NCBI GenBank assembly: GCA_029864405.1
Contig: JAOTTP010000002.1
Coordinates: 31,678-95,677, forward strand
Direction: 5' to 3'
Length of the DNA: 64,000 bases
Source of the DNA: Nitrospirota bacterium
GTDB taxonomy: Bacteria; Nitrospirota; Nitrospiria; Nitrospirales; UBA8639
Both the position numbers and the translations under genes were made by a program. The notes beneath the pieces were generated by a model. It was given only the letters and a program-made list of their open reading frames with translations. It was not told the DNA's origin and did not search any database. Positions 1,878 through 64,000 of the stretch are shown here, piece by piece. Numbering within the stretch: the stretch's first letter is position 1; each line of letters opens with the position of its first letter.

Positions 1878-2942
1878 ATGAACCACTTGCTTTCATCTCC
1901 TCCATTAGCAAAAGACTTAATGGACCCCAAAGCCTTACCACTTAGCCGTGGGAAATTCGAGAACGATCTGGCGCTGCAATTCCTCTCCGGTCAATATTGT
2001 GGATGGCCGGTGGTTGATTCCACCCGCAAAATTCTTGGGATCGTGTCGGATCTCCGGCTGTTCGAGGCCGTTTCACGCTTGGATTCGCTGGATGAACTCA
2101 GTGTCGAAGACACCATGACTCCGCCCGTTTATGTGCATGAGAGTGAACCTCTTGATATGGTGTTGAATTTGATGACTCAAAGACAAATCCAGAGAATGCC
2201 TGTGGTGGGTGATCAGAATCTTGTCGGAGTCATCTCCAAGGCCAATGTGTTACGGCATTGTCTCCCATCTGCGCCTTCCTCCCGATTCGTCTCTTCGTGC
2301 GCGTGGTGTGAATGCGTGCAGGATCCCTCTGCCGGACCGGCCGGGACGAAAGGAGGGCCGGATTTGGCGTCCTTCCTTTCGATGGATCATCTCAACTTCT
2401 CTGAGATCGACTTTGCGCATACCGGTTGCCCTTCTTGTTTGCAAACCCTTCAGACACTCAACACAACATCCGTGAGTCTGTCGCCTGATGAGACGGAGAC
2501 CCAGGAAGTCCGTCCAAGTTTGTTGGTGGTCGATGATGATCCATCAGTGCCCGGGCTGTTAAAGCAGGCGCTTCAGGAATGGGGATACGAAGTGCTTATT
2601 GCGAGAAATGGATGGGAAGGCCTGGACGTGGTGAGCCGCCATAAGGTAGATGGCATTTTACTGGATATACAGATGCCCATTATGGATGGGAGGACCATGC
2701 TTGATGAATTGCGATGGTTGGGTCATCAGATGCCGGTGCTGATGATGTCAGGGGTGTCTGACGAACGAGCCCTCCGGCAACTGTTGCTGGAAGGAGCCCA
2801 AGGGTTTTTCATGAAACCGTTTGATCTCACCTCTCTCAAACAAGCCTGTCGCCAGGTCTTTCAAAAGGACGAGGTTGAGGCACAGTCCTCCTCTCATTTC
2901 CAGGTGGCTAGATCGAATTGTGGAAAACAGGATGAAAGATGA
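1878..2942 (+). CDS. CBS-CBS-receiver (REC) fusion protein
   Basis: 354 residues. Residues ~10-130 form a CBS pair (GWPVVD.., MPVVGDQNLVGVISKANVL), the adenosyl-ligand sensing module. Residues ~213-335 are a CheY-type receiver: LLVVDDDPS acidic pocket, phospho-acceptor Asp in DGILLDIQMP, and conserved Lys in FMKPF. The linker (~143-200) holds two cysteine groups, CAWCEC and CPSC, which could bind metal or form disulfides. There is no output domain, so the protein probably signals through protein-protein contact. The start is supported by the purine-rich GAAAGAGAGG ahead of the ATG. CBS fused to REC in this order, with a Cys-rich linker, is uncommon. Confidence 0.85.
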   Translation: MNHLLSSPPLAKDLMDPKALPLSRGKFENDLALQFLSGQYCGWPVVDSTRKILGIVSDLRLFEAVSRLDSLDELSVEDTMTPPVYVHESEPLDMVLNLMTQRQIQRMPVVGDQNLVGVISKANVLRHCLPSAPSSRFVSSCAWCECVQDPSAGPAGTKGGPDLASFLSMDHLNFSEIDFAHTGCPSCLQTLQTLNTTSVSLSPDETETQEVRPSLLVVDDDPSVPGLLKQALQEWGYEVLIARNGWEGLDVVSRHKVDGILLDIQMPIMDGRTMLDELRWLGHQMPVLMMSGVSDERALRQLLLEGAQGFFMKPFDLTSLKQACRQVFQKDEVEAQSSSHFQVARSNCGKQDER

Positions 2943-3319: not shown

Positions 3320-4444
3320 TCATAAGACAATGCCTTCGCGACCAAGCAAGCTCCTTAAGCTTTGGATGACCGGAAAAACCTCCTGGTTCCAGTCGGCGCC
3401 TTGACGATCAAAGGCTTTCTGCTCTTCCTCAACAATCCACCGGTCTTCGGCAAAGATTCCATTGGTAAACCACACGATAAACGGCCACAAGAGGTGGATG
3501 AGTCCGGGAATCGAAGGTTTCCGAACCATCATCAACCCAAAGGTGTGATTCATTCGTTGCGCCCGATCAACGGGAACATACACATTCCACAGATTTAAGG
3601 CAGGGTTGGTGCTCCCGGCTGTCCAGAACTGGAGGGTTTGATAGGGATATTCTGTACAGATGGTCATGAGATCATGCTTCGGGCCATCAGCCGATTGTTT
3701 GGCGCTCCCTAGAATGAGTTTCTCTCCGAGGGGTTGTGCGCCTTTGATCCTGGAGAAGGTATAGTCCACTTCCACGGCATGCGTCCGTTCTCGAAGTTCC
3801 AGAAAGACCGTTCGGACCCCGCCCATCAGTCGACGATGCAAAAACTGATGGTTCATGTCCATGAGGTTCTCATGCATGAATGAATAATGACAGCTCACCT
3901 GACGGTCAAGGTATCGCGTTTTATAATGCGGATCGCCTGCTAAGGACACCTTCGGGAACTCAACCTCTTCCACTCTGCTCGCCGTCCCCGGAAACACAAA
4001 CACCAGCCCATAGGCTTCCCGACAGGGATAACTTCTGACTCCTGCCGGCCGTGGTTGGTCTTTTTCCAAATACGGAACACCCATACATCGCCCGGTTTGG
4101 TCAAACGTCCAGGAATGATACCCGCACTGGAGATGCTCTCCGTGCACCACCCCATGATGGAGCGGAACCTGTCGATGGGCACACCGGTCTTCAAGAGCAT
4201 AGATTCGTCCGCTTACGGTTCTGACCAAGACGATGGGATCGCCGGCAAAGGACACTCCAAGCATCTTTCCATTTTTCAGGTCTCTGGAGCGTGCGAGCGG
4301 ATACCAATAGTCCGGGTGAAGACCCGTTTTTCTCAAATCGGATGTGGGAGTCGTCTGCCCCGCCCGGGATGTAGGGCTTTCCAGGATAATGGGAGCGCCG
4401 CTATCCTTCTGTCTGTCTACGTGTATGTGAGATTGCTCAATCAT
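3320..4444 (-). CDS. Rieske non-haem iron oxygenase (aromatic ring-hydroxylating dioxygenase alpha-subunit family)
   Basis: 374 residues. The N-terminal Rieske 2Fe-2S domain has the full ligand set: CAHRQVPLHHG followed by CGYHSWTF (C-x-H ... C-x2-H). The C-terminal catalytic domain carries the mononuclear iron motif DMNHQFLH (D-x2-H-x3-H). Length and layout fit the single-component VanA / pheophorbide-a-oxygenase-like group, which hydroxylates or demethylates aromatic or cyclic substrates using electrons from a separate reductase. No reductase or ferredoxin gene is adjacent, so the electron donor and substrate are unknown. It is transcribed away from the sensor-kinase block. Confidence 0.88.
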   Translation of the reverse strand: MIEQSHIHVDRQKDSGAPIILESPTSRAGQTTPTSDLRKTGLHPDYWYPLARSRDLKNGKMLGVSFAGDPIVLVRTVSGRIYALEDRCAHRQVPLHHGVVHGEHLQCGYHSWTFDQTGRCMGVPYLEKDQPRPAGVRSYPCREAYGLVFVFPGTASRVEEVEFPKVSLAGDPHYKTRYLDRQVSCHYSFMHENLMDMNHQFLHRRLMGGVRTVFLELRERTHAVEVDYTFSRIKGAQPLGEKLILGSAKQSADGPKHDLMTICTEYPYQTLQFWTAGSTNPALNLWNVYVPVDRAQRMNHTFGLMMVRKPSIPGLIHLLWPFIVWFTNGIFAEDRWIVEEEQKAFDRQGADWNQEVFPVIQSLRSLLGREGIVL

Positions 4445-5245: not shown

Positions 5246-7222
5246 GTGAAGTTCCCAAAACGTGTGTGGTTAGAAACTTCATCAATCGGAGGAGCCTTAT
5301 TGGCCCTCACCACGTTGTTTATTCTAACGTTGTTCGGCATCCTGCTCTATACGATTACCACTATTCAGAATCAAAAACTCGACAGCGTGACGGTGGACTT
5401 GGCCGGACGACAGCGGATGCTGAATCAACGACTCATGAATGAAATTTTATTGACTTTACAAGGGATTCCTGCCGATTACCGGTTCACTCAAAAGACGTTG
5501 AACCAAACCCTGGACGCTTTACTGGCTGGTGGACAAGCCGTGATTAATTCGGAAAGTGGAGAGACGGTGGCCCTCCCTCCCGCTCCGACCAAGGAAATTC
5601 TGCAGGCATTAGGTGAGCAAAAAACACTCATGACCGAATTTACGGCAAAAGCGGAAAGGTTCTTTACGATCGGGCCTGATCAACCAGAATTTAATTTGGA
5701 ATTAGACGGCCTCCTGGCTTTGAATGTCCGGTTGAATAAAGTGGCCAACAACGCCGTGAAATTATTCAGCCGATATTCACAAGAGAAGATCTCGAAAATG
5801 ATTCTATGGGAATCTCTGATCGGGGGCTTGGCGGGAATTTTCGGAGTCCTTTTGACGAGACAGGTCAGGATGGCCAACCGGGAACTTGAACATGAAATCC
5901 AGGAACGCTTACGAGTAGAAATGGCTCTGCGCTATCGCATGGAAATTGAAAATCTGGTGGCGAATCTTTCAACCCAATTCATTAATCTCAAAAAGGAAGA
6001 TTTTGATACGGAAATTAACCGGGCTCTGGAATCCATCGGAACGTTCGGAGATGTTGATAGAAGCTACGTGTTTGTATTTGAGGATGACGGAGAGACCGTG
6101 AATAATACCCATGAATGGTGTGGGCCGGGTATTGAGTCTCACCAATCAAGACTTCAGGGGGTTCACATGCACGCCTTCCCCTGGCTTGCCGAACGTCTGA
6201 CCTCTTGTCCGTTTATTCAAATTCCAAGCGTGAGCAACCTTCCACCTGAGGCAAGTGCCGAGAAACGGGAATTTGAAAGGCAGCAAATCCAATCTCTGGT
6301 GATTGTGCCCATGGTCTGGCGCGAAAAGTTGTTCGGGTTCCTTGGATTCGATTCGGTGAAACAGGAAAAGATGTGGTCGGAAGAGGACACCAGGCTTCTG
6401 CACATGGCTGGAGAAATTTTCGTCAACGGGTTTGAACGAAAAATGATCGAAGAGAATTTGCGAAAAAGTGAAGCCGACAAAATTGAAGCGTTTCGTCAAA
6501 GCGATGCCCTCAAAACCGCTCTGTTGTCGTTGGTTTCCCACGAATTACGGACCCCGCTTACCGCAATCAAAGCCTCCGTGGCCGGGTTGATCGGTCTTTC
6601 CAGCCAGGAAACGTCCAAGGTGCAGAAGGAATTCCTCCAGAGCATCAATCAGGAAATCGATTTCTTGAATGGATTGGTGGATAATCTTCTGGATATGTCC
6701 AGAGTTGAGTCGGGGACGCTGGCCCCCCATCGTGAATGGCATTTATTGGAAGATTTGGTCGAAGGCGCGATCAGACGGGTGGAATTGTCGTTGGAAGGTC
6801 GATCACTACAAGTGGATCTCGGGGAGAATATTTCTCCTATTTATGTGGACGGGATAGAAATTCAGCAAGTGCTCATTAATCTGTTGGATAACGCCATCAA
6901 ATATTCTCTCACAGGGTCCCGGATCAGCATTTTAGGTCGTATGAAACCGGGACAGGTGGAAGCCAGAGTCTCCAACGAAGGAGATGGAATCCCGCAGGAG
7001 GATTTATCAAAGATCTTCGAGCGGTTTTACCGCCTGAAAGGTCCCCGGGCACGAATGATTAGAGGTACCGGTCTCGGATTGGCAATCTGTAAAGGGATGG
7101 TCGAGGCTCATGGCGGTCGAATTTGGGCCGAATCCCCCAAAGGGCGAGGGGTCACGATTGGCTTCATGTTGCCGATCCCTGATGCCCCCCCTACGATCAA
7201 CCTTGAACGGCCTGAGGAATAA
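5246..7222 (+). CDS. sensor histidine kinase with PilJ/NarX-like periplasmic domain and GAF
   Basis: 658 residues from a GTG start. Order: TM1 (~13-37), periplasmic helical domain with AGRQRMLNQRL (~53-63), the signature of the PilJ/NarX-like nitrate/nitrite-type sensing fold, TM2 (~187-205), coiled coil, GAF domain (~235-400), HisKA with the phospho-acceptor His in SHELRTPL (~432), and HATPase_c with N box (LLDNAIKYS) and G2 box (GTGLGLAIC). It is a membrane kinase that probably senses a small periplasmic ligand. The GAF-HisKA-HATPase half resembles KdpD. The partner regulator gene starts 11 bases downstream. Ligand identity (possibly an oxyanion) is inference. Confidence 0.9.
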   Translation: MKFPKRVWLETSSIGGALLALTTLFILTLFGILLYTITTIQNQKLDSVTVDLAGRQRMLNQRLMNEILLTLQGIPADYRFTQKTLNQTLDALLAGGQAVINSESGETVALPPAPTKEILQALGEQKTLMTEFTAKAERFFTIGPDQPEFNLELDGLLALNVRLNKVANNAVKLFSRYSQEKISKMILWESLIGGLAGIFGVLLTRQVRMANRELEHEIQERLRVEMALRYRMEIENLVANLSTQFINLKKEDFDTEINRALESIGTFGDVDRSYVFVFEDDGETVNNTHEWCGPGIESHQSRLQGVHMHAFPWLAERLTSCPFIQIPSVSNLPPEASAEKREFERQQIQSLVIVPMVWREKLFGFLGFDSVKQEKMWSEEDTRLLHMAGEIFVNGFERKMIEENLRKSEADKIEAFRQSDALKTALLSLVSHELRTPLTAIKASVAGLIGLSSQETSKVQKEFLQSINQEIDFLNGLVDNLLDMSRVESGTLAPHREWHLLEDLVEGAIRRVELSLEGRSLQVDLGENISPIYVDGIEIQQVLINLLDNAIKYSLTGSRISILGRMKPGQVEARVSNEGDGIPQEDLSKIFERFYRLKGPRARMIRGTGLGLAICKGMVEAHGGRIWAESPKGRGVTIGFMLPIPDAPPTINLERPEE

Positions 7223-7233
7223 TCCGTCTACCA

Positions 7234-7938
7234 ATGTCTCATGGATCTCGCATATTAGCCGTCGACGATGAGCGACAAATTCGACGTTCATTGCAGGTCA
7301 ACCTTGAGGCCAAAGGGTATGAGGTGATGACGGCTGAAACGGGAGAAGAGGCGCTGCAAATTATCAGCCACCGCCCACCTGACCTTGCGCTTGTGGATTT
7401 AATGCTTCCCGGAATGGATGGAATCGAACTGACCCGTCAGTTGCGTGAAATCTACCATATACCGATCATTATTCTTTCCGCGATAGGGGAGGAAGCTCAA
7501 AAGATTGAAGCGCTGGAAGTAGGGGCCGATGACTATGTCATCAAACCGTTCAGCATGGAAGAACTGGTAGCGAGAATCCGCTCCGTTCTACGTCGTACAG
7601 CCTCCATGTATAGTGCCGATCCCGTTTTCAGATTTGGAGATTTACTCGTCGATTTCGACCGCCGTGAAATCCGGATGCGGAATAACCCCGTGAAGTTAAC
7701 CCCGACGGAATATGATCTGTTGAAGTTTCTGATTCACAATGCCGGAAAAGTTCTGACGCACGGAACAATTCTCCGGGCCGTGTGGGGACCGGGATATAGC
7801 GATCAGGCACAGTATTTACGAGTATTTATCGGGAACTTAAGAAAGAAATTGGAAAAAAACACGGCACGTCCTCAATATATTCTCACAGATCCTGGAGTCG
7901 GGTATCGTTTTGCCACTGATTTCGTGGAAGATAAATGA
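7234..7938 (+). CDS. OmpR/KdpE-family response regulator
   Basis: 234 residues. Receiver domain at 1-120 (ILAVDDE, phospho-Asp in LALVDLMLPGMDG, Lys in VIKPFS), then an OmpR/PhoB winged-helix DNA-binding domain (~135-230) with the LTPTEYDLLKFL and GVGYRF hallmarks. The sequence is closest in style to KdpE. It lies 11 bases after the sensor kinase on the same strand and is almost certainly its cognate DNA-binding partner. The target genes are unknown; the cupredoxin, receiver and globin-receiver genes downstream are candidates. Confidence 0.93.
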   Translation: MSHGSRILAVDDERQIRRSLQVNLEAKGYEVMTAETGEEALQIISHRPPDLALVDLMLPGMDGIELTRQLREIYHIPIIILSAIGEEAQKIEALEVGADDYVIKPFSMEELVARIRSVLRRTASMYSADPVFRFGDLLVDFDRREIRMRNNPVKLTPTEYDLLKFLIHNAGKVLTHGTILRAVWGPGYSDQAQYLRVFIGNLRKKLEKNTARPQYILTDPGVGYRFATDFVEDK

Positions 7939-8371
7939 ACAACCTGACTGCGGGTTTTCATGTGAGGTGCTCCCTGCAAGTCATCGTCTCCTCCCCTTCC
8001 CGCTCAGGTGACATCCTTTTTTCATTTGCCTTTCTCCTTTAATTCATCCAGCTGTCTTCAACGGATTTTTTCGGAATGACTTCCTTTCCAAGGGAATGAA
8101 TTTCCGGGCCCCGAAAGGCTGCCGCTGATTGAAATCATGGCCCTTACTTCACTCGTTTGAGTGTTTGGCAATATCCTTTTCTGCCCCATCGCCTGGAGGG
8201 TTTATGTCGGCGTTTGGAAGGGAAGCAATAATAAGGAAGCTTTATGAAATCTTTATTCGAAAAGGGTGACAATCAAATGGAATCTTTATAGTTTTTAGAA
8301 ATATCATTTAAACGTAACCAAATGCACACCCACAACCGGCCCGAGGAAGTGAAAAAACGGGAGGTGGACAT
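7939..8371. other. intergenic region before the cupredoxin gene
   Basis: About 430 bases with no convincing ORF, RNA or terminator. A good ribosome site (GGGAGGTGG) ends it just before the ATG at 8372. Confidence 0.4.
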
Positions 8372-8791
8372 ATGAAATCCTTGACCTGGACAACATCCTC
8401 TAAGACTCTGAATGTGATAGAAATTCCCCTTCTCTTGCTGTCGACTTTGAGCGATGGATGGGCCTCCACTCAGTCTTCAGATGTGAAAGTCACGATGGAT
8501 TACTGGGCACCGTATTATAGACCGGCTCGGGCCCTTGTTCCTCATAACGTATCAATTCGCATTGTGAATTCTACCTCTTCACCGCATACCTTGACGCATG
8601 ATGGTTGTCGGATGTCTGGTCCTTGCGCATTTGATAGAGGTGCTGTTCAACCCGGGGAGAATTTCATCATTCCTTCACTCCCGCCCGGACGGTATTCCTA
8701 TTATTGCGTGCTTCATCCCATCATGAAGGGCGAAATTATCGTCAGTCCCCATAACCCGATGCTTAGTCAGGCTGAGACTCAAGATCATTAG
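8372..8791 (+). CDS. small secreted cupredoxin-like protein
   Basis: 139 residues, preceded by GGGAGGTGGACAT. A weak N-terminal hydrophobic stretch (IEIPLLLLSTL, ending around WAST) suggests export. The rest is a plastocyanin/azurin-like beta barrel. The type-1 copper ligand pattern is visible as His in SPHTLTHDGC and the C-terminal loop CVLHPIM (Cys, His, Met). Between them are two extra cysteines (GCRMSGPC) that could form a disulfide. A paralogue with the same layout lies at 38852..39271. The protein probably carries electrons or binds copper in the periplasm; no partner is adjacent. Confidence 0.8.
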   Translation: MKSLTWTTSSKTLNVIEIPLLLLSTLSDGWASTQSSDVKVTMDYWAPYYRPARALVPHNVSIRIVNSTSSPHTLTHDGCRMSGPCAFDRGAVQPGENFIIPSLPPGRYSYYCVLHPIMKGEIIVSPHNPMLSQAETQDH

Positions 8792-8914: not shown

Positions 8915-9280
8915 ATGAAAAGCCGAAAGTGTATTCTCATTGTCGACGATGATGCGGACATCCTCTTATTTCTAAGGGATCGTCTGAATGCTTTGGGCTA
9001 CGACGTTCTCACAGCGACCAATGGAAAGGAAGGGCTTGACTTCCTGCAATATCAATCCGTCGCTGGCGTGTTACTGGATTTATATATGCCTGTCATGGGA
9101 GGCATCTTCATGCTGGAACAATTAGCGCAGTCTTCTACAATTCCACCGGTGATCGTCATGTCGGACACTGAACATCGATCGGAACTGCAGCTAGCTATTG
9201 TTAAGGGGGCAATGGACTTTCTCATCAAACCGATAGCTCAGGACCAATTGACCAGTAAATGTGCGCGACTCTTTCACTAG
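8915..9280 (+). CDS. stand-alone receiver-domain (CheY-like) protein
   Basis: 121 residues from the ATG at 8915 (MKSRKCILIVDDD). The track's longer form begins at a TTG at 8834 and adds 27 residues not typical of a receiver, so the shorter start is preferred although neither has a strong ribosome site. A single REC domain has phospho-Asp in VLLDLYMP, Thr/Ser in VIVMSD and Lys in FLIKPI. There is no output domain. It ends 43 bases before the start of the globin-receiver gene, suggesting co-transcription and possibly phosphotransfer. Confidence 0.8.
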   Translation: MKSRKCILIVDDDADILLFLRDRLNALGYDVLTATNGKEGLDFLQYQSVAGVLLDLYMPVMGGIFMLEQLAQSSTIPPVIVMSDTEHRSELQLAIVKGAMDFLIKPIAQDQLTSKCARLFH

Positions 9281-9323: not shown

Positions 9324-10223
9324 ATGAAGAATGGCAAATTGAACATTTCTCCGGGACTTCCCCTTCCTGATATATCCCGGATCCAAGAAAGTTTTGGGAT
9401 GGTAGCCCCTCACGGAGAGCGGATGGTTTCTCGATTTTATGATGTGTTGTTTGATAAATTCCCAGAATTTCAGACCTTTTTCCCTCAGAGCCATTTATCC
9501 CAACAATATGCGGCGTTTCTAAACGGATTGCGCACCCTCATCTTACACATGGAAAACCCTCAAGAATTACGATCTACCCTTGTTCAATTAGGCAAACGGC
9601 ACCAAAGGTATGGTATTAAAAACAAACATTACCCTCCTGTCGTATATGCCCTATTGCACGTGCTGACCGAATTAGGGGAGGGACGCATAGATGGAAAAAC
9701 ATATGACGCTTGGGAAAATTTCCTTCACCTGATGAGAGCCATTATGCTTGAGAGCCACTCCCTGGAAGTGTTGCCTGATAAAGATCGGAATGGGAAGTCC
9801 CTCATTGCTGTGGCTGGAAGCAATACAAAAAGAATCCTGCTCATTGATGATGACCACCAACTTCTGGACCTCTATCAATCATACTTGGAGCTCGAAGGGT
9901 ATCTCTGCAGTCAAGTTTCGGATGTGGCCTGGGCATTTACCCATATTCAAATGAGTCACTATGACCTCGTCCTGACGGATTTCCAAATGCCCGTGATGAA
10001 TGGTATTCAGTTACGGAGAAATCTTGAATATGTGGGTAATGGCTGTTGTCCGCCATTTGTCTTGGTGACAGGGAGTCTCAATCAGGAGATTCGAAGACAA
10101 GCGTTAGAGTCCGGATTCGAGGCAGTGCTGAAAAAGCCGCATGACCTTACTGAGCTGGGTTCTCTCATAGGAAAAGTCTTAAAGAAATCTATGGGTTTTC
10201 AAGGAAATGTACAGAATATGTGA
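9324..10223 (+). CDS. globin-receiver (REC) fusion protein
   Basis: 299 residues. The ATG at 9324 follows GAAAGGAAACG and is preferred over the GTG at 9261, which would overlap the upstream gene. Residues ~10-145 are a flavohaemoglobin/Vitreoscilla-type globin: Tyr of FYDVLF (B10), Gln in SQQYAAF (E7 region) and proximal His in GKRHQRYGI followed by HYPPVV. Residues ~170-290 are a receiver: ILLIDDDH, phospho-Asp in LVLTDFQMPVMNG and Lys in LKKPHD. The protein lacks the FAD/NAD reductase half of flavohaemoglobins and has a receiver instead, so it is probably a haem-based O2/NO sensor or a haem-gated phospho-acceptor. This architecture is unusual. Confidence 0.85.
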   Translation: MKNGKLNISPGLPLPDISRIQESFGMVAPHGERMVSRFYDVLFDKFPEFQTFFPQSHLSQQYAAFLNGLRTLILHMENPQELRSTLVQLGKRHQRYGIKNKHYPPVVYALLHVLTELGEGRIDGKTYDAWENFLHLMRAIMLESHSLEVLPDKDRNGKSLIAVAGSNTKRILLIDDDHQLLDLYQSYLELEGYLCSQVSDVAWAFTHIQMSHYDLVLTDFQMPVMNGIQLRRNLEYVGNGCCPPFVLVTGSLNQEIRRQALESGFEAVLKKPHDLTELGSLIGKVLKKSMGFQGNVQNM

Positions 10224-10343: not shown

Positions 10344-10447
10344 ATTTTATTTTGTGCTCAACACGAAAAGGCCGGAAACGCCTTCCAGGATTGGCTATAA
10401 TGCGTTTGAAAGAACAGATCATAGCACCCACCCAGGAGGCATTTCCG

Positions 10448-11977
10448 GTGAAGAAGCTTAGCACGAAACAGAGCCGTCGGAACATCACACAACGCAAGAC
10501 GAAGGTTGCGGCACGGCATGCCCAGGCGGGACACTGGTCCGCGCAGGCCCAGCCGATGTTTGGATCGGGCAAGGTCCACTATGAGGTGGGCGGCAACATG
10601 GAGGCGATGAATTATGGGGGGATTGCCCCCGTGCATCGACTGGTGACCAAGTTGGGATTGCGTGCGCAGATCGATGCAGACTTGAGCCTGTTGAAGGTGC
10701 ACTTGCCGTATCATGAGTCCGATCATGTGCTGAATATTGCCTACAATGTCCTGTGCGGTGGGACCCGGCTGGAGGACATTGAGCGGCTTCGCCATGACGT
10801 GGCCTACATGAATGCCTTGGGCGCGGACTTGATTCCGGATCCGACCACGGCCGGCGACTTCACGCGACGCTTGACAGAGGCCGATGTGCTCACGCTGATG
10901 GAATCAATCAATGCGATCCGCCCAAAACTCTGGGCCGGGCGAGGCGCCGAACGGCTGTGGCCGATCGCCTACATGGATATCGATGGCACGATTGCCCCAA
11001 CCTCTGGGGCATGTAAAGCCGGGATGGACATCTCCTATAAGGGCATCTGGGGCTATGCCCCGCTGATCATCTCCCTCGCCAATACCAAAGAAGTCTTGTA
11101 TCTCGTCAATCGCCCGGGCAATGCGCCGAGCCATCAAGGGGCCGCGGCCTGGATCGACAAAGCCCTGACGCATCTGGTCCCCTATGCCCCACGCGTCTGC
11201 ATGCGGGGGGATACGGACTTTTCACTGACCAAGCATTTCGACCAGTGGGCTGAGACCGTGGACTTTATCTTCGGCATGGACAGCACCGCGACGTTACGAA
11301 CCTGTGCCGAGGCCCTCAGCGAAGACCAGTGGAGCCGACTGAAGCGCCAGCCCCCAGACGACACGCTGCCCGGAACCACGCGTGAACGATTCCAAGAAAA
11401 CGAGAAGGCGCGGATTGTCAAAGAGCGCGGCTACCTCAATCTGCACCTCAACGACGAGGATGTGGCCGAGTTTGAGTACCAGCCCGGCAAGTGCACCCGT
11501 CCGTATCGCGTCGTGGCCCTGCGCAAGAACATCAGCAAGATGAAAGGGGAGAACGTGCTGTTCGATGAGATTCGGTACTTCTTCTACATCACCACGCGGC
11601 CGGACCTGAGCGCGGCTGAGGTCGTGGCGTGTGCCAATGAGCGGTGTGATCAGGAAAATGTCATCGAGCAACTCAAGAACGGGGTCAATGCGCTGCGCCT
11701 GCCGGTCTACGATCTCGTCAGCAACTGGGCCTACATGGTCATAGCCGCTCTGGCCTGGAACATCAAATCATGGTTTGCCATGATGCTGCACCTGAAGAAG
11801 GATCGAGACACCTACATTCGGATGGAGTTTCGACGGTTCATGAACAGCTTCATGTTGATCCCCTGTCGCGTGGTGCGGCAGGCTCGAAGTATTGTGGTTC
11901 GGATCCTGGGCTATCAGCCGACGTTGGATCGGCTCTTCAGTGCGTGGAACGCCATCGAACGAACTGGCTTTGGCTAG
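10448..11977 (+). CDS. IS1380-family DDE transposase
   Basis: 509 residues from the GTG at 10448, which has an ideal AGGAGG 8 bases upstream. The track's TTG at 10352 and the ATG at 10400 lack such a site. DDE catalytic residues are visible as Asp in YMDIDGTIAP, Asp in RGDTDFSL and Glu in CDQENVIEQLKNGVNA, the last being a typical IS1380 C-terminal signature. The frame is intact, so the element may still be active. It catalyses cut-and-paste movement of the surrounding IS. Confidence 0.93.
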   Translation: MKKLSTKQSRRNITQRKTKVAARHAQAGHWSAQAQPMFGSGKVHYEVGGNMEAMNYGGIAPVHRLVTKLGLRAQIDADLSLLKVHLPYHESDHVLNIAYNVLCGGTRLEDIERLRHDVAYMNALGADLIPDPTTAGDFTRRLTEADVLTLMESINAIRPKLWAGRGAERLWPIAYMDIDGTIAPTSGACKAGMDISYKGIWGYAPLIISLANTKEVLYLVNRPGNAPSHQGAAAWIDKALTHLVPYAPRVCMRGDTDFSLTKHFDQWAETVDFIFGMDSTATLRTCAEALSEDQWSRLKRQPPDDTLPGTTRERFQENEKARIVKERGYLNLHLNDEDVAEFEYQPGKCTRPYRVVALRKNISKMKGENVLFDEIRYFFYITTRPDLSAAEVVACANERCDQENVIEQLKNGVNALRLPVYDLVSNWAYMVIAALAWNIKSWFAMMLHLKKDRDTYIRMEFRRFMNSFMLIPCRVVRQARSIVVRILGYQPTLDRLFSAWNAIERTGFG

Positions 11978-12809: not shown

Positions 12810-13629
12810 TTGTCGATCCCTCCTTGTGTTGAAGACCTTCTCATTCACTGTATTGATGAATCCAATTGCCCGTTGGCCTATAGGAAAAAGCAAACGTGTT
12901 GCCACATTCAATTCTTCTGAGGATCTGATACGTAAGGCCTTGATGCCTCATCATATTTTCATAACTAGATCTTCAAGTGGTGTATACCCTGAATCCTGAG
13001 ATGGGTGAAAACGGTCAATGTTTTTTACCATTAGCACAAAACGATTCATGTATTGTTAAGCATCAAGAAAGGTTTGACCATATCTGATGTAAAACGCCAA
13101 TAACATGAGAAAAGTTTTCGACAGATGAAGATATTCCACGATGTTTTCTATCCTGATGCAGATTGGGATATTTTGTGGGATGCCTCACCTTGCAGTCCCC
13201 TGGCTGCTTTTTTCCGGTCTTGTTGCTTTTTATGCTATTTCAATTATGGTAGGTCGCTGAATCCACTTTTTTCTCAAAGAAAAATGATGTAGGCAATAAC
13301 ATTGAGTATGATAGGGTTTTAGATGTTATTACCTGTTGGTTTTTGTAATTATAGAGACAGAAGTGCTTTTTGGGCGACGCTGTTATTTATCCCGGAAAGG
13401 TGCACACTTGACTCATCCTGATATTCCGAACGAATCAAAAAAATCTCGGCTAGAACTCCATACGAGCCAGATATAGTCCTCCGTCGGTTGAACTTGTGGT
13501 TATCAACTCCCCAAAAATCAATTAGACTTTAGGAAATCGATGGAAATCCGAATGGTTGTAGAATCTGTTGAATTCGGCCTGAGCATTGATTGAATGTCAA
13601 ACCCCCGAATCATTTACAAGAAGGACTGT
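12810..13629. other. AT-rich intergenic region
   Basis: About 800 bases between divergent genes. It has long A/T-rich stretches (13020-13400) with no ORF, RNA or repeat that can be supported. Confidence 0.4.
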
Positions 13630-14397
13630 ATGTCCATAAAAAAACTATCCCCGACACAATTCCAGAAGAAGTTGCTTGATGTCATGGCCCAGAAGCATCA
13701 TTGGGCCTGGTCGTATTTTTCCGGTCCGACTCTGACAAAAGCGCAACTGAAGATTCATTTCCAGCAGGAATATGCTGTGTATGTTCGTGACTTTCCGGTA
13801 TTCCTGGCGCGTATACATGGAAAGAACCCGCCGCTGGAAGTCCGGCGAATGCTGGCTGAAAATATTTATGAAGAAGATACCGGGAAGCTGTCATTGGGGA
13901 CTTCACATCCGGAACTCTTTATGAAAATGATGAAGGGCTTAGGATTTCGCCCAGGCGATTTTGAGAAAATTCGGTCGTTGCCTGCGACCCGGCGCTACCG
14001 GGCATGGTTGGATCGAATCTCCAATAGTTCTGATTGGGTTTTGGGAGCAGCCGTCATGACGATATTTGTCGAAGGCAGCGTCAATGATCGTCAGGAACTC
14101 CTCCATCCCGCCAAATCAAAAACCCGCCGGCATATTCAGGAAAAGATCACACATCATCCACTGGTGCAGTATCAGGGAGTTTCTCCCAAGGCGATGGATC
14201 TCATTCGAGCGCATCAAATGGTGGAGGCCGGTCATCGCCATGATGCCTATGCGATGGTCGTGAATTATGCTCAAGAGATCTCGCAGCAGGAAGCAGTTCT
14301 CACGTTTATGGAGAAGAGCCTGCAGCATTGGCTTCGCTATCGTGATGGGGTCGCCCGTGCCTGTGGTTTAAGGAAAAGCGAGGGGGAAATCCGCTGA
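13630..14397 (+). CDS. haem-oxygenase-fold (TenA/PqqC-like) iron-dependent redox enzyme family protein
   Basis: 255 residues from the ATG at 13630, which has GAAGGA just upstream. The track's ATG at 13594 has no ribosome site. The all-helical sequence fits the iron-containing redox enzyme / CADD-PqqC-TenA superfamily: FQQEYAVYVRDFP early, ENIYEEDTGKLS followed by HPELFMKMM, Glu in FVEGSVNDR, and HRHDAYAMV late. The Glu, His and Asp residues in these blocks are candidate diiron ligands, as in haem-oxygenase-like diiron oxidases. Substrate unknown. No cofactor-biosynthesis neighbours are present, so thiamine or PQQ roles are not supported. Confidence 0.72.
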   Translation: MSIKKLSPTQFQKKLLDVMAQKHHWAWSYFSGPTLTKAQLKIHFQQEYAVYVRDFPVFLARIHGKNPPLEVRRMLAENIYEEDTGKLSLGTSHPELFMKMMKGLGFRPGDFEKIRSLPATRRYRAWLDRISNSSDWVLGAAVMTIFVEGSVNDRQELLHPAKSKTRRHIQEKITHHPLVQYQGVSPKAMDLIRAHQMVEAGHRHDAYAMVVNYAQEISQQEAVLTFMEKSLQHWLRYRDGVARACGLRKSEGEIR

Positions 14398-59847: not shown

Positions 59848-60627
59848 GTGGATTCTAGGTCCCTATTGGTTGCCTGGATCAATTTGCGAATCTCCTGGTC
59901 TGTTGGAAGGTCGTTGCCAGGCAACGAGTCTGAAGCCGTCTCGGTCTTTATATTTTCTTTATCTCTTCCTTTTTGTCGGTTGTACAGCTTAAATAATGAA
60001 TATTTCCAAAAAGTTAATAGAAGAAGAAAGAGGGCACATGTCCGAGCCGGGAAGCAAGAGGGTCGGGTTTCCTTCGACAACGCAGGTGCCTTGTGCCTCG
60101 TCGAAATGAGGCGCAGGAGCCATAACGATCATGAAATCACAAGAAGGTCAGGGAAATGAACCGGTTGCTCAGGTAGTGAGCATATCTGGCATTCCTGGCA
60201 GTTTTCGTCATGTGCTCGCCGGTGAACAGGCGACGATTCGAACTAAAAGGGCGCTCACTATTCTTTCTACGCAATCAGGGATCTCCCGGCCCGCCATTCC
60301 CGACATTTTCTATCGGGAATCTCTCTTGTGGTTTGGAAAATCCAGGTGCCTGCTCCAGCAACCATTTGAAGGGGAAGGTTCAAGAACTTGGAGAAATGAC
60401 GATCGGGGGGCAATCGATGTCGACCGCACTCTCGATTCATCTGACACTGTCCGTCAAGTGATATCCAAGTTTATACGGATGTAGGGATATCGCGTGCCAC
60501 GGTCATACTGAATTGGTGGGTGTGATGAATCACCAGAAAGATGGCATAAGGTGGCGGCAGGAGGAGGTCAGAGGAGTAAGAATGTTGATTGCCAGCCGAT
60601 GATTGCATGATTGACCGCAATCGGGTC
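59848..60627. other. gene-free region with a lone repeat unit
   Basis: About 780 bases. At 60292-60325 is a half-unit of the first REP family (CCATTCCCGACATTTTCTATC then GGGAATCTCTC). ORF 60131..60484 (+) has no site or domain and is not called. Confidence 0.45.
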
Positions 60628-62673: not shown

Positions 62674-64000
62674 TTATCCGACAGGTCTGCAAGCAGAGGG
62701 CGCGTCCACTTCTCTCTCTGGCTCCGGGGTGGCCCGATCCCCATGAGCTATTCGTCCCGCCAGCTGGTGAAGGTGGTGAAGGTGCCGTTCGATGGCTGCC
62801 AGGTCGGCAGTCTTGGTCGCGGCTTCCAGTTCGGCAGCCGGCTCGTTTAACACATCGAAACCCACCGTGCCACCCGCACCCTTCAGCCAATGAGCCAGCT
62901 TGGCCAAGGCCTCCATATCCCGATTCGAGTAGGCGGCATCCATCGCGTGCAGTTGTTCGCCCAAGCGGCCCACAAAACGTGAAATCACGTTGGCGAATCT
63001 CGGGTTGCTCCCCCCAAGCTTTGACACAATGGGTGAGGTATCCTCCGCCTGTGAGGCTTGATCTTGCCGGGACTCCGGCATGAGGGTTTTCCTAGACGAT
63101 TCATTGACTGGTTGAGCGTGGAGCAACTGGGCCAATTTAGAGAGGAAACGATCGATGTCGATCGGTTTGGTCAGATAGTCGGAATACCCGGCATCAAGTA
63201 ACTCCTGCTCAAAGCCTTTCATCGCGTTGGCGGTGAGCGCGAGGATAGGTGTCTGCAGGCCTCTGTCCCGTAACGTGCGAGTGGCGGTGAACCCGTCCAT
63301 CTCAGGCATCTGCACATCCATGAGAATGAGGTCATAATTTGTGGTCGTGGCCATTTCAACTCCCACCCGACCATTACCGGCTTCGTCGATGGTCAGGCCA
63401 TAATCCTCCAGAACCACCTTGACCAGTTCCCGGTTTTCCGGGCCGTCGTCTACGACCAGGATCCTTGCCGATGGAAAGGCCCAGTTCGTGTGTTCCTGTA
63501 TCATGACGGAATCGACGACCGCTAAGGCCTGCTGGGGTGTCACCCATGCCACCTCCGCCGCACTGCCGGCATCCAGGGTGATTCTGAACACGCTGCCCAC
63601 TCCCGGCTCACTTTCCACCGTAATATCTCCACCCAACGCGCGTGCGAATTTGCGGCTGATGGATAATCCCAGACCGGTTCCACCAAATTTCCGGGTCACC
63701 GATGCATCGGCCTGAACAAAATCTTGAAAAATCCGGCTGGTGGCTTCCCGACTCATGCCAATACCGGTGTCTGCGACATCGATATGAAACTGGAGCATGT
63801 TCCCGTCCATTTGCTCGGCATACGTGGTCAGGGTGACGGCGCCACGCTCGGTAAATTTCACCGCGTTACCCACGAGGTTGGTGACAATCTGACGGATCCG
63901 GTTCGGGTCGCCGATGATGGTCTCCGGGACGTCATCCGGGACCTTGAGTTCAAGGTGGATGCCTTTCTCGTGAGCCCTGACACCCAGGACCCTGACGACA
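62674..64000 (-). CDS. hybrid sensor histidine kinase, partial (N-terminus off the right edge)
   Basis: 442 visible residues, open to the window edge. Track ORF 62674..63873 is its truncated form. HATPase_c (from the edge: IGDPNRIRQIVTNL with LVGNAVKFTERG, GTGLGLSISRKF), a receiver (~RILVVDDGPENRELVK, LILMDVQMPEMDGFTA, YLTKPID) and an HPt domain at the end with the phospho-His in LAHWLKGAGGTVG. This is an ArcB/BarA-type phosphorelay kinase that would feed a separate receiver; stand-alone receivers at 8915 and 16282 are possible partners. Confidence 0.92.
   Translation of the reverse strand, partial: VVRVLGVRAHEKGIHLELKVPDDVPETIIGDPNRIRQIVTNLVGNAVKFTERGAVTLTTYAEQMDGNMLQFHIDVADTGIGMSREATSRIFQDFVQADASVTRKFGGTGLGLSISRKFARALGGDITVESEPGVGSVFRITLDAGSAAEVAWVTPQQALAVVDSVMIQEHTNWAFPSARILVVDDGPENRELVKVVLEDYGLTIDEAGNGRVGVEMATTTNYDLILMDVQMPEMDGFTATRTLRDRGLQTPILALTANAMKGFEQELLDAGYSDYLTKPIDIDRFLSKLAQLLHAQPVNESSRKTLMPESRQDQASQAEDTSPIVSKLGGSNPRFANVISRFVGRLGEQLHAMDAAYSNRDMEALAKLAHWLKGAGGTVGFDVLNEPAAELEAATKTADLAAIERHLHHLHQLAGRIAHGDRATPEPEREVDAPSACRPVG

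Follow-up and report, generated by a model that had tools for sequence, protein, structure and literature searches.

The window, by which we mean the whole 64,000-nucleotide stretch of DNA analysed here, encodes at 9324..10223 a globin joined in one continuous frame to a receiver (REC) domain. This globin-REC is one real protein, far beyond chance, and both its globin and its REC half are maintained by purifying selection. Our best explanation, the truth of which as a whole we regard as evenly balanced, is that globin-REC serves as a gas-responsive accessory receiver of the adjacent kinase and regulator, and that it was born by gene fusion.

The fusion protein

The gene and the parts of its product are as follows:

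9324..10223, + strand: globin-REC fusion gene (299 aa, ATG start, uninterrupted open reading frame)
9369..9758, + strand: M-type globin domain, as assigned below (aa 16-145)
9438-9440, + strand: B10 Tyr39, globin haem-pocket residue
9504-9506, + strand: E7 Gln61, globin haem-pocket residue
9600-9602, + strand: F8 His93, proximal His
9630-9632, + strand: Tyr103, equivalent of Hmp Tyr95
9759..9827, + strand: linker (aa 146-168), poorly conserved and of low model confidence
9828..10187, + strand: receiver (REC) domain (aa 169-288), complete active site
9978-9980, + strand: Asp219, phospho-acceptor of the REC active site

A Shine-Dalgarno-like AAAGGA lies directly 5' of the ATG at 9324; an alternative in-frame GTG is present at 9261, and it is the ATG with its ribosome-binding site that is kept in most orthologues. 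Pfam recognizes two domains in the 299-aa protein, Globin (PF00042, E 6.6e-13, aa 37-137) and Response_reg (PF00072, E 3.1e-18, aa 171-279), and finds neither a reductase nor any further output domain. The protein is neither a known effector domain with a REC nor a stand-alone REC of the CheY/Spo0F type, the globin being the sole companion of its REC. The earlier note had described a globin of the flavohaemoglobin type, carrying Tyr at B10, Gln near E7 and the proximal His, followed by a full REC in place of the reductase; both the Pfam domains and the invariant residues bear this description out.

In pairwise comparison (NG86), the median dN/dS reaches 0.68 in the linker but only 0.22 in the globin and 0.07 in REC; it is because the values for the two domains are low that we consider both halves to be maintained. 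In the AlphaFold2 model, pLDDT falls below 50 at aa 144-168. Since the linker is poorly conserved and modelled with low confidence, no rigid signalling element between globin and REC is evident in the model. The catalytic set of the REC half (Asp175/Asp176, Asp219, Thr249 and Lys271-Pro272) is invariant in orthologues. The modelled REC has a pLDDT of about 40-65, obtained from a six-sequence alignment, and no domain-domain geometry is therefore drawn from the model. PADLOC matches reflected generic REC similarity only. A DNA-binding domain lost from the 3' side of REC was also considered, since a tblastn match in L092 suggested that a piece of Trans_reg_C might persist beyond the stop codon; the downstream frames show none. 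About 130 bp 3' of the fusion gene lies a DDE transposase (DDE_Tnp_1_4; 10352-11977), which is unmatched in the relative loci examined, and further along, at 13594-14397, is a haem-oxygenase-like iron enzyme of the TENA/PqqC type (PF14518), with distant similarity to CADD.

Occurrence of the fused frame

The genus, which is Nitrospira-like, was represented by 21 genomes; the relatives include Nitrospirales NPIRA06 and NPIRA03, Nitrospira sp. HKST-UBA08 and UBA8639. The fused frame is present in 9 of the 21 (the window, G001, G002, G005, G008, G009, G010, G015 and G019), with a globin identity of 58-79% in the relatives that carry the fusion. In G007 and G018 the surrounding cluster is present and the contigs end before the position of globin-REC, while G014 and G020 lack the fusion though their genomes are 98-100% complete. 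A frame error or an assembly fault could in principle have joined two genes, and such an artefact would fit the finding that, at this locus, relatives carry the halves unfused. The same continuous frame recurs, however, in nine species and in separate assemblies, including the single-contig genomes G001 and G002, which leaves the artefact a vanishingly small probability. Thus, of the two concerns coupled in the earlier note, that the halves might be separate genes in homologues and that the frame might be misjoined, the first proved true of relatives, and the second is ruled out by the nine intact orthologues.

A sample of about 1,700 genomes covering five phyla gave, beyond the genus, matches to single halves only and none that spanned both. 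The fusion did not turn up beyond the genus among 236 genomes of the order (searched with the globin as query), among 396 genomes of the phylum, or among about 290-350 genomes from each of the phyla to which the Stutzerimonas, Terriglobia, Spartobacteria and Marivirga records belong. In 72,556 plasmids, tblastn gave single-half matches only and no globin-REC, and a pattern scan of 84,980 species, which detects close relatives only, returned five Nitrospirales orthologues as its only full-length matches. Judging from these sequence searches, globin-REC is likely absent outside the genus. One candidate, a 291-aa protein from Bacteroidota (L231), was rejected, being by eye an Hpt-like N-terminal part joined to a REC, with no globin.

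The globin half

Tyr39 (B10), Phe53 (CD1), Gln61 (E7), His93 (F8) and Tyr103 are invariant in six globin-REC orthologues. Position E11 is Phe65 in the aligned fusion rows, whereas it is Leu in every other aligned globin. The flavohaemoglobin catalytic Glu (Hmp Glu137) is absent; the aligned position holds His145, which varies among orthologues. The best NCBIfam model for this half is the flavohaemoprotein, while a Protoglobin match on the same half is weaker (E 1.1e-5, 26 bits, for a cut-off of 25). The closest sequence is Hell's Gate globin I of Methylacidiphilum (PDB 3s1i, E 8e-11), and the AlphaFold2 globin model best matches the O2-bound form of that protein (TM 0.92 on the target, rmsd 1.5 Å, 27% identity). 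By these comparisons, the globin half is M-type (flavohaemoglobin-like) and stands outside the sensor/protoglobin (S) lineage, and it would be expected to bind haem. With flavohaemoglobins and Hell's Gate globin I it shares the globin fold and the equivalents of B10 Tyr, E7 Gln, F8 His and Tyr95; unlike them, it is without the FAD/NAD(P)H reductase and the flavohaemoglobin catalytic Glu, and has Phe, not Leu, at E11.

Flavohaemoglobin-type globins also occur in Nitrospiraceae and other Nitrospirota as parts of HAMP/PAS-MCP proteins and, in a single genome, of a CheW protein (L084:2348-5638, L124:1432-3450, L087:1752-2969). They are the nearest globins within the same order and class (31-35% identity in the order) and form N-terminal modules as in globin-REC, but their outputs are of the chemotaxis type, whereas that of globin-REC is REC. 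These are globin-coupled signalling proteins built on a non-canonical globin lineage.

The roles of the two halves might be reversed, with REC as input and globin as output, so that phosphorylation by the kinase switches the globin's handling of NO or O2, or recruits the globin to the kinase, much as in a response regulator with an N-terminal effector. REC is the regulated input in ordinary response regulators, some globins with B10 Tyr and E7 Gln are NO dioxygenases and others bind O2 with very high affinity, and the lone globin of the G235 cluster (described below) could scavenge without a REC. Nevertheless, the protein lacks both a reductase and the Glu used by flavohaemoglobins in catalysis, REC is much more conserved than the globin, and M-type globins in the same order are the N-terminal parts of MCP and CheW proteins. 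In our opinion, this reversed arrangement is unlikely.

The conserved kinase cluster

Globin-REC is the last gene of a conserved neighbourhood:

1878..2942, + strand: CBS-REC protein, another receiver protein without a classical output domain
3320..4444, - strand: Rieske oxygenase
5246..7222, + strand: sensor histidine kinase (PilJ-type N-terminal domain, GAF, HisKA, HATPase_c), the proposed phosphodonor
7234..7938, + strand: OmpR/KdpE-type response regulator (REC and Trans_reg_C)
8239..8289, + strand: repeat box, TCTTTAT-like motifs at 8239, 8250, 8272 and 8283, in register on an 11-bp ladder
8372..8791, + strand: cupredoxin-like protein, first gene 3' of the repeat box
8918..9280, + strand: REC1, stand-alone receiver immediately 5' of globin-REC

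The order CBS-REC, Rieske oxygenase (on the opposite strand), kinase, OmpR-type regulator, cupredoxin, REC1, globin-REC is kept in eight relative loci, as far as the contigs reach. The start of REC1 is placed at ATG 8918, which is kept among relatives, and not at TTG 8834. Because the distance from the last sense codon of REC1 to the start of globin-REC is 46-49 bp in all compared loci, the two genes are likely co-transcribed. Since globin-REC sits in a conserved kinase cluster, the adjacent kinase appears to be a credible partner. A PDB search with the sensor region of this kinase gave nothing significant; the PilJ model also covers NarX-type nitrate/nitrite sensors, which offers a lead. The other phosphodonor put forward in the earlier note, the kinase at 62674, had to be set aside: it is a HATPase-REC-Hpt piece about 52 kb away that reaches the contig end and has no conserved link to globin-REC. 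Within the window this piece spans 62674-63873 (HATPase_c-REC-Hpt), its sensor and HisKA parts lying outside.

The repeat box is a conserved block between the OmpR-type regulator and the cupredoxin in all eight compared loci, the window included. The exact pair TCTTTAT-N4-TCTTTAT occurs at only 16 places in the 21 genus genomes (0-3 per genome), and nine of these places are the box site. The window's own copy of the box has one mismatch to the exact pair, its exact match lying elsewhere, at 59945. Close versions of the box are found 5' of REC1 in the related globin-less loci of G014, G013, G020 and G230 and are weaker or absent in others. An 11-bp ladder of direct repeats is the arrangement typical of OmpR-family sites, and the box is probably a binding site of the regulator at 7234.

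One may ask whether globin-REC signals instead, in the manner of CheY, to motility or type IV pili and does not modulate the adjacent regulator. The PilJ-type domain of the kinase would suit such a role, as would the coupling of related Nitrospiraceae globins to MCP and CheW proteins. Yet no chemotaxis or pilus gene was recognized beside the cluster, and what is conserved next to the gene is a regulator that binds DNA, close to a repeat box that is likewise kept; we therefore regard an output of this kind as very unlikely.

Unfused relatives and the origin of the fusion

Each half of globin-REC is also found alone at the same place. The locus of G013, G014, G016 and G020 reads kinase-RR-REC1-REC2, with a lone REC2 and no globin, whereas that of G235 (another genus) and G004 reads kinase-RR-cupredoxin-receiver followed by a lone globin gene, without REC2. 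Each half is thus tied independently to the kinase module. In G226, G228, G230 and G232, which represent further genera, the best matches of the fusion profile fall on the REC half, and the loci also hold the regulator and REC1. It should be noted that the lone globin of G004 is frameshifted (L199:549-1193) and that a globin of the MCP-fused type in G016 has internal stops (L018/L088); these may reflect sequencing error or decay.

In the globin tree, a clade of the fused and the lone (G235/G004) globins is neither supported nor rejected (p-AU 0.14). The REC tree has many open forks, and REC2 genes are taken as orthologous from their position and their best-hit status in several genera. The separate halves at the same place point to a gene fusion within an existing kinase module. 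The simplest account would be that a kinase-RR-REC1-REC2 module gained the cupredoxin and the globin, and that the globin then became fused to REC2, a step that we place in the window's lineage.

These loci also bear on whether globin-REC is mainly a phosphate sink or competitor receiver, whose globin senses no gas and only stabilises the protein, helps it to dimerise or directs its location. REC1 and globin-REC are receivers in tandem, neither of them with an output domain, reminiscent of a sink of the NmpT type, REC2 is kept without any globin in relatives, and the linker is unconserved. On the other hand, the haem-pocket residues are invariant in the aligned fusion orthologues and the globin is under purifying selection, so that a sink without gas sensing seems to us quite unlikely.

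Proposed mechanism

In the explanation that we favor, globin-REC would be a soluble accessory receiver of the kinase (5246-7222) and the OmpR-type regulator (7234-7938). The kinase would phosphorylate the REC half, the globin half would bind haem and O2 (or NO), and the ligand state would alter the uptake, holding or return of phosphate by REC, or its docking on the kinase. The gas level would thus bias the share of phosphate that reaches the DNA-binding regulator, which would in turn bind the repeat box. As to its origin, an older kinase-regulator-REC1-REC2 module would have had two stand-alone REC genes, and a globin gene would have become joined to the second of them. What we observe is the fusion, the intact residues of both domains, the conserved cluster with its repeat box and the unfused halves in relatives; what we infer is that haem is bound, which gas is its ligand, that this kinase supplies the phosphate, which half gates the other, how the genes came to be fused and that the regulator binds the box. 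The explanation is supported by domains that are intact and under purifying selection, by the structural match to an O2-bound globin, by the conserved gene order and by the repeat box; in the alignments, the haem-pocket and REC residues of globin-REC are intact. Against it stand, besides the poorly conserved linker and the p-AU of 0.14 for a clade of fused and lone globins, the globin of G235 without REC2 and the REC2 of G013, G014 and G020 without a globin: because the halves occur apart, neither needs the other in those relatives.

A bolder reading, tentative and in our judgement somewhat doubtful, is that globin-REC represents a new class of haem-gated receiver, in which an M-type globin directly controls REC phosphorylation, O2 or NO enters the pathway at the receiver and not at the kinase, and the protein was born by fusion in a Nitrospira-like kinase module of which unfused relatives are extant. 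The literature searched places gas sensing by globins at kinases, cyclases or chemoreceptors and not at receivers; should haem gate the REC, O2 or NO would be integrated at the second step of a two-component pathway. With lone globin, lone REC2 and fused pair forming a natural series among the relatives, both the origin and the function of the fusion can be tested. The PilJ-type sensor and the host lineage suggest, without proving it, a link to oxygen or nitrogen-oxide control in nitrite-oxidising bacteria.

Comparison with known systems

With its N-terminal 3-over-3 globin followed by a signalling domain, globin-REC is built as globin-coupled sensors are and would work like one, yet it falls outside the canonical group. 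Members of that group (HemAT, AfGcHK, globin-coupled diguanylate cyclases, RsbR) resemble it in combining an N-terminal globin with a signalling domain and in probable gas sensing. They differ in that their globin belongs to the sensor/protoglobin lineage, while PF00042 and the flavohaemoprotein model score best on globin-REC. A 2026 review gives kinases, cyclases, MCPs and phosphodiesterases as the outputs of globin-coupled sensors and does not name REC among them (PMC13401364). The earlier statement that known sensors of this kind use other outputs agrees both with that list and with the lack of globin-REC outside the genus in our searches.

The nearest described architecture is that of HGbRL from Methylacidiphilum infernorum (globin-Roadblock/LC7), termed a putative globin-coupled sensor (PMC4476040) and among the best PDB sequence matches of the globin half (3wfw, E 2e-8). 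Like globin-REC, it is a small two-domain protein of one genus, with an N-terminal B10 Tyr/E7 Gln globin, no reductase and a C-terminal signalling-type domain. However, the output of HGbRL is Roadblock/LC7 and that of globin-REC a phospho-acceptor REC; the haem-coordinating Lys52 (E10) of HGbRL aligns, in our alignment, with Ala64 of globin-REC; and for the HGbRL operon a methyltransferase is named, not a sensor kinase (PMC4476040).

For the proposed mechanism, the closest working parallel that we found is, by analogy, NmpRSTU of Myxococcus, in which the globin kinase is O2-responsive and an effector-less two-receiver protein has been proposed as a phospho-sink (PMC11841059). The myxobacterial NmpRSTU/AfGcHK pathway shares with the globin-REC cluster a sensor kinase and a receiver-only protein and, if the proposed mechanism holds, a haem-globin O2 input. 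Analogously to the CBS-REC of the window cluster, a CBS-domain protein is encoded in the operon of the NmpRSTU regulator (PMC11841059). The NmpRSTU globin is part of the kinase, whereas here it is the receiver that carries the globin, and the N-terminal domain of the kinase is of the PilJ type.
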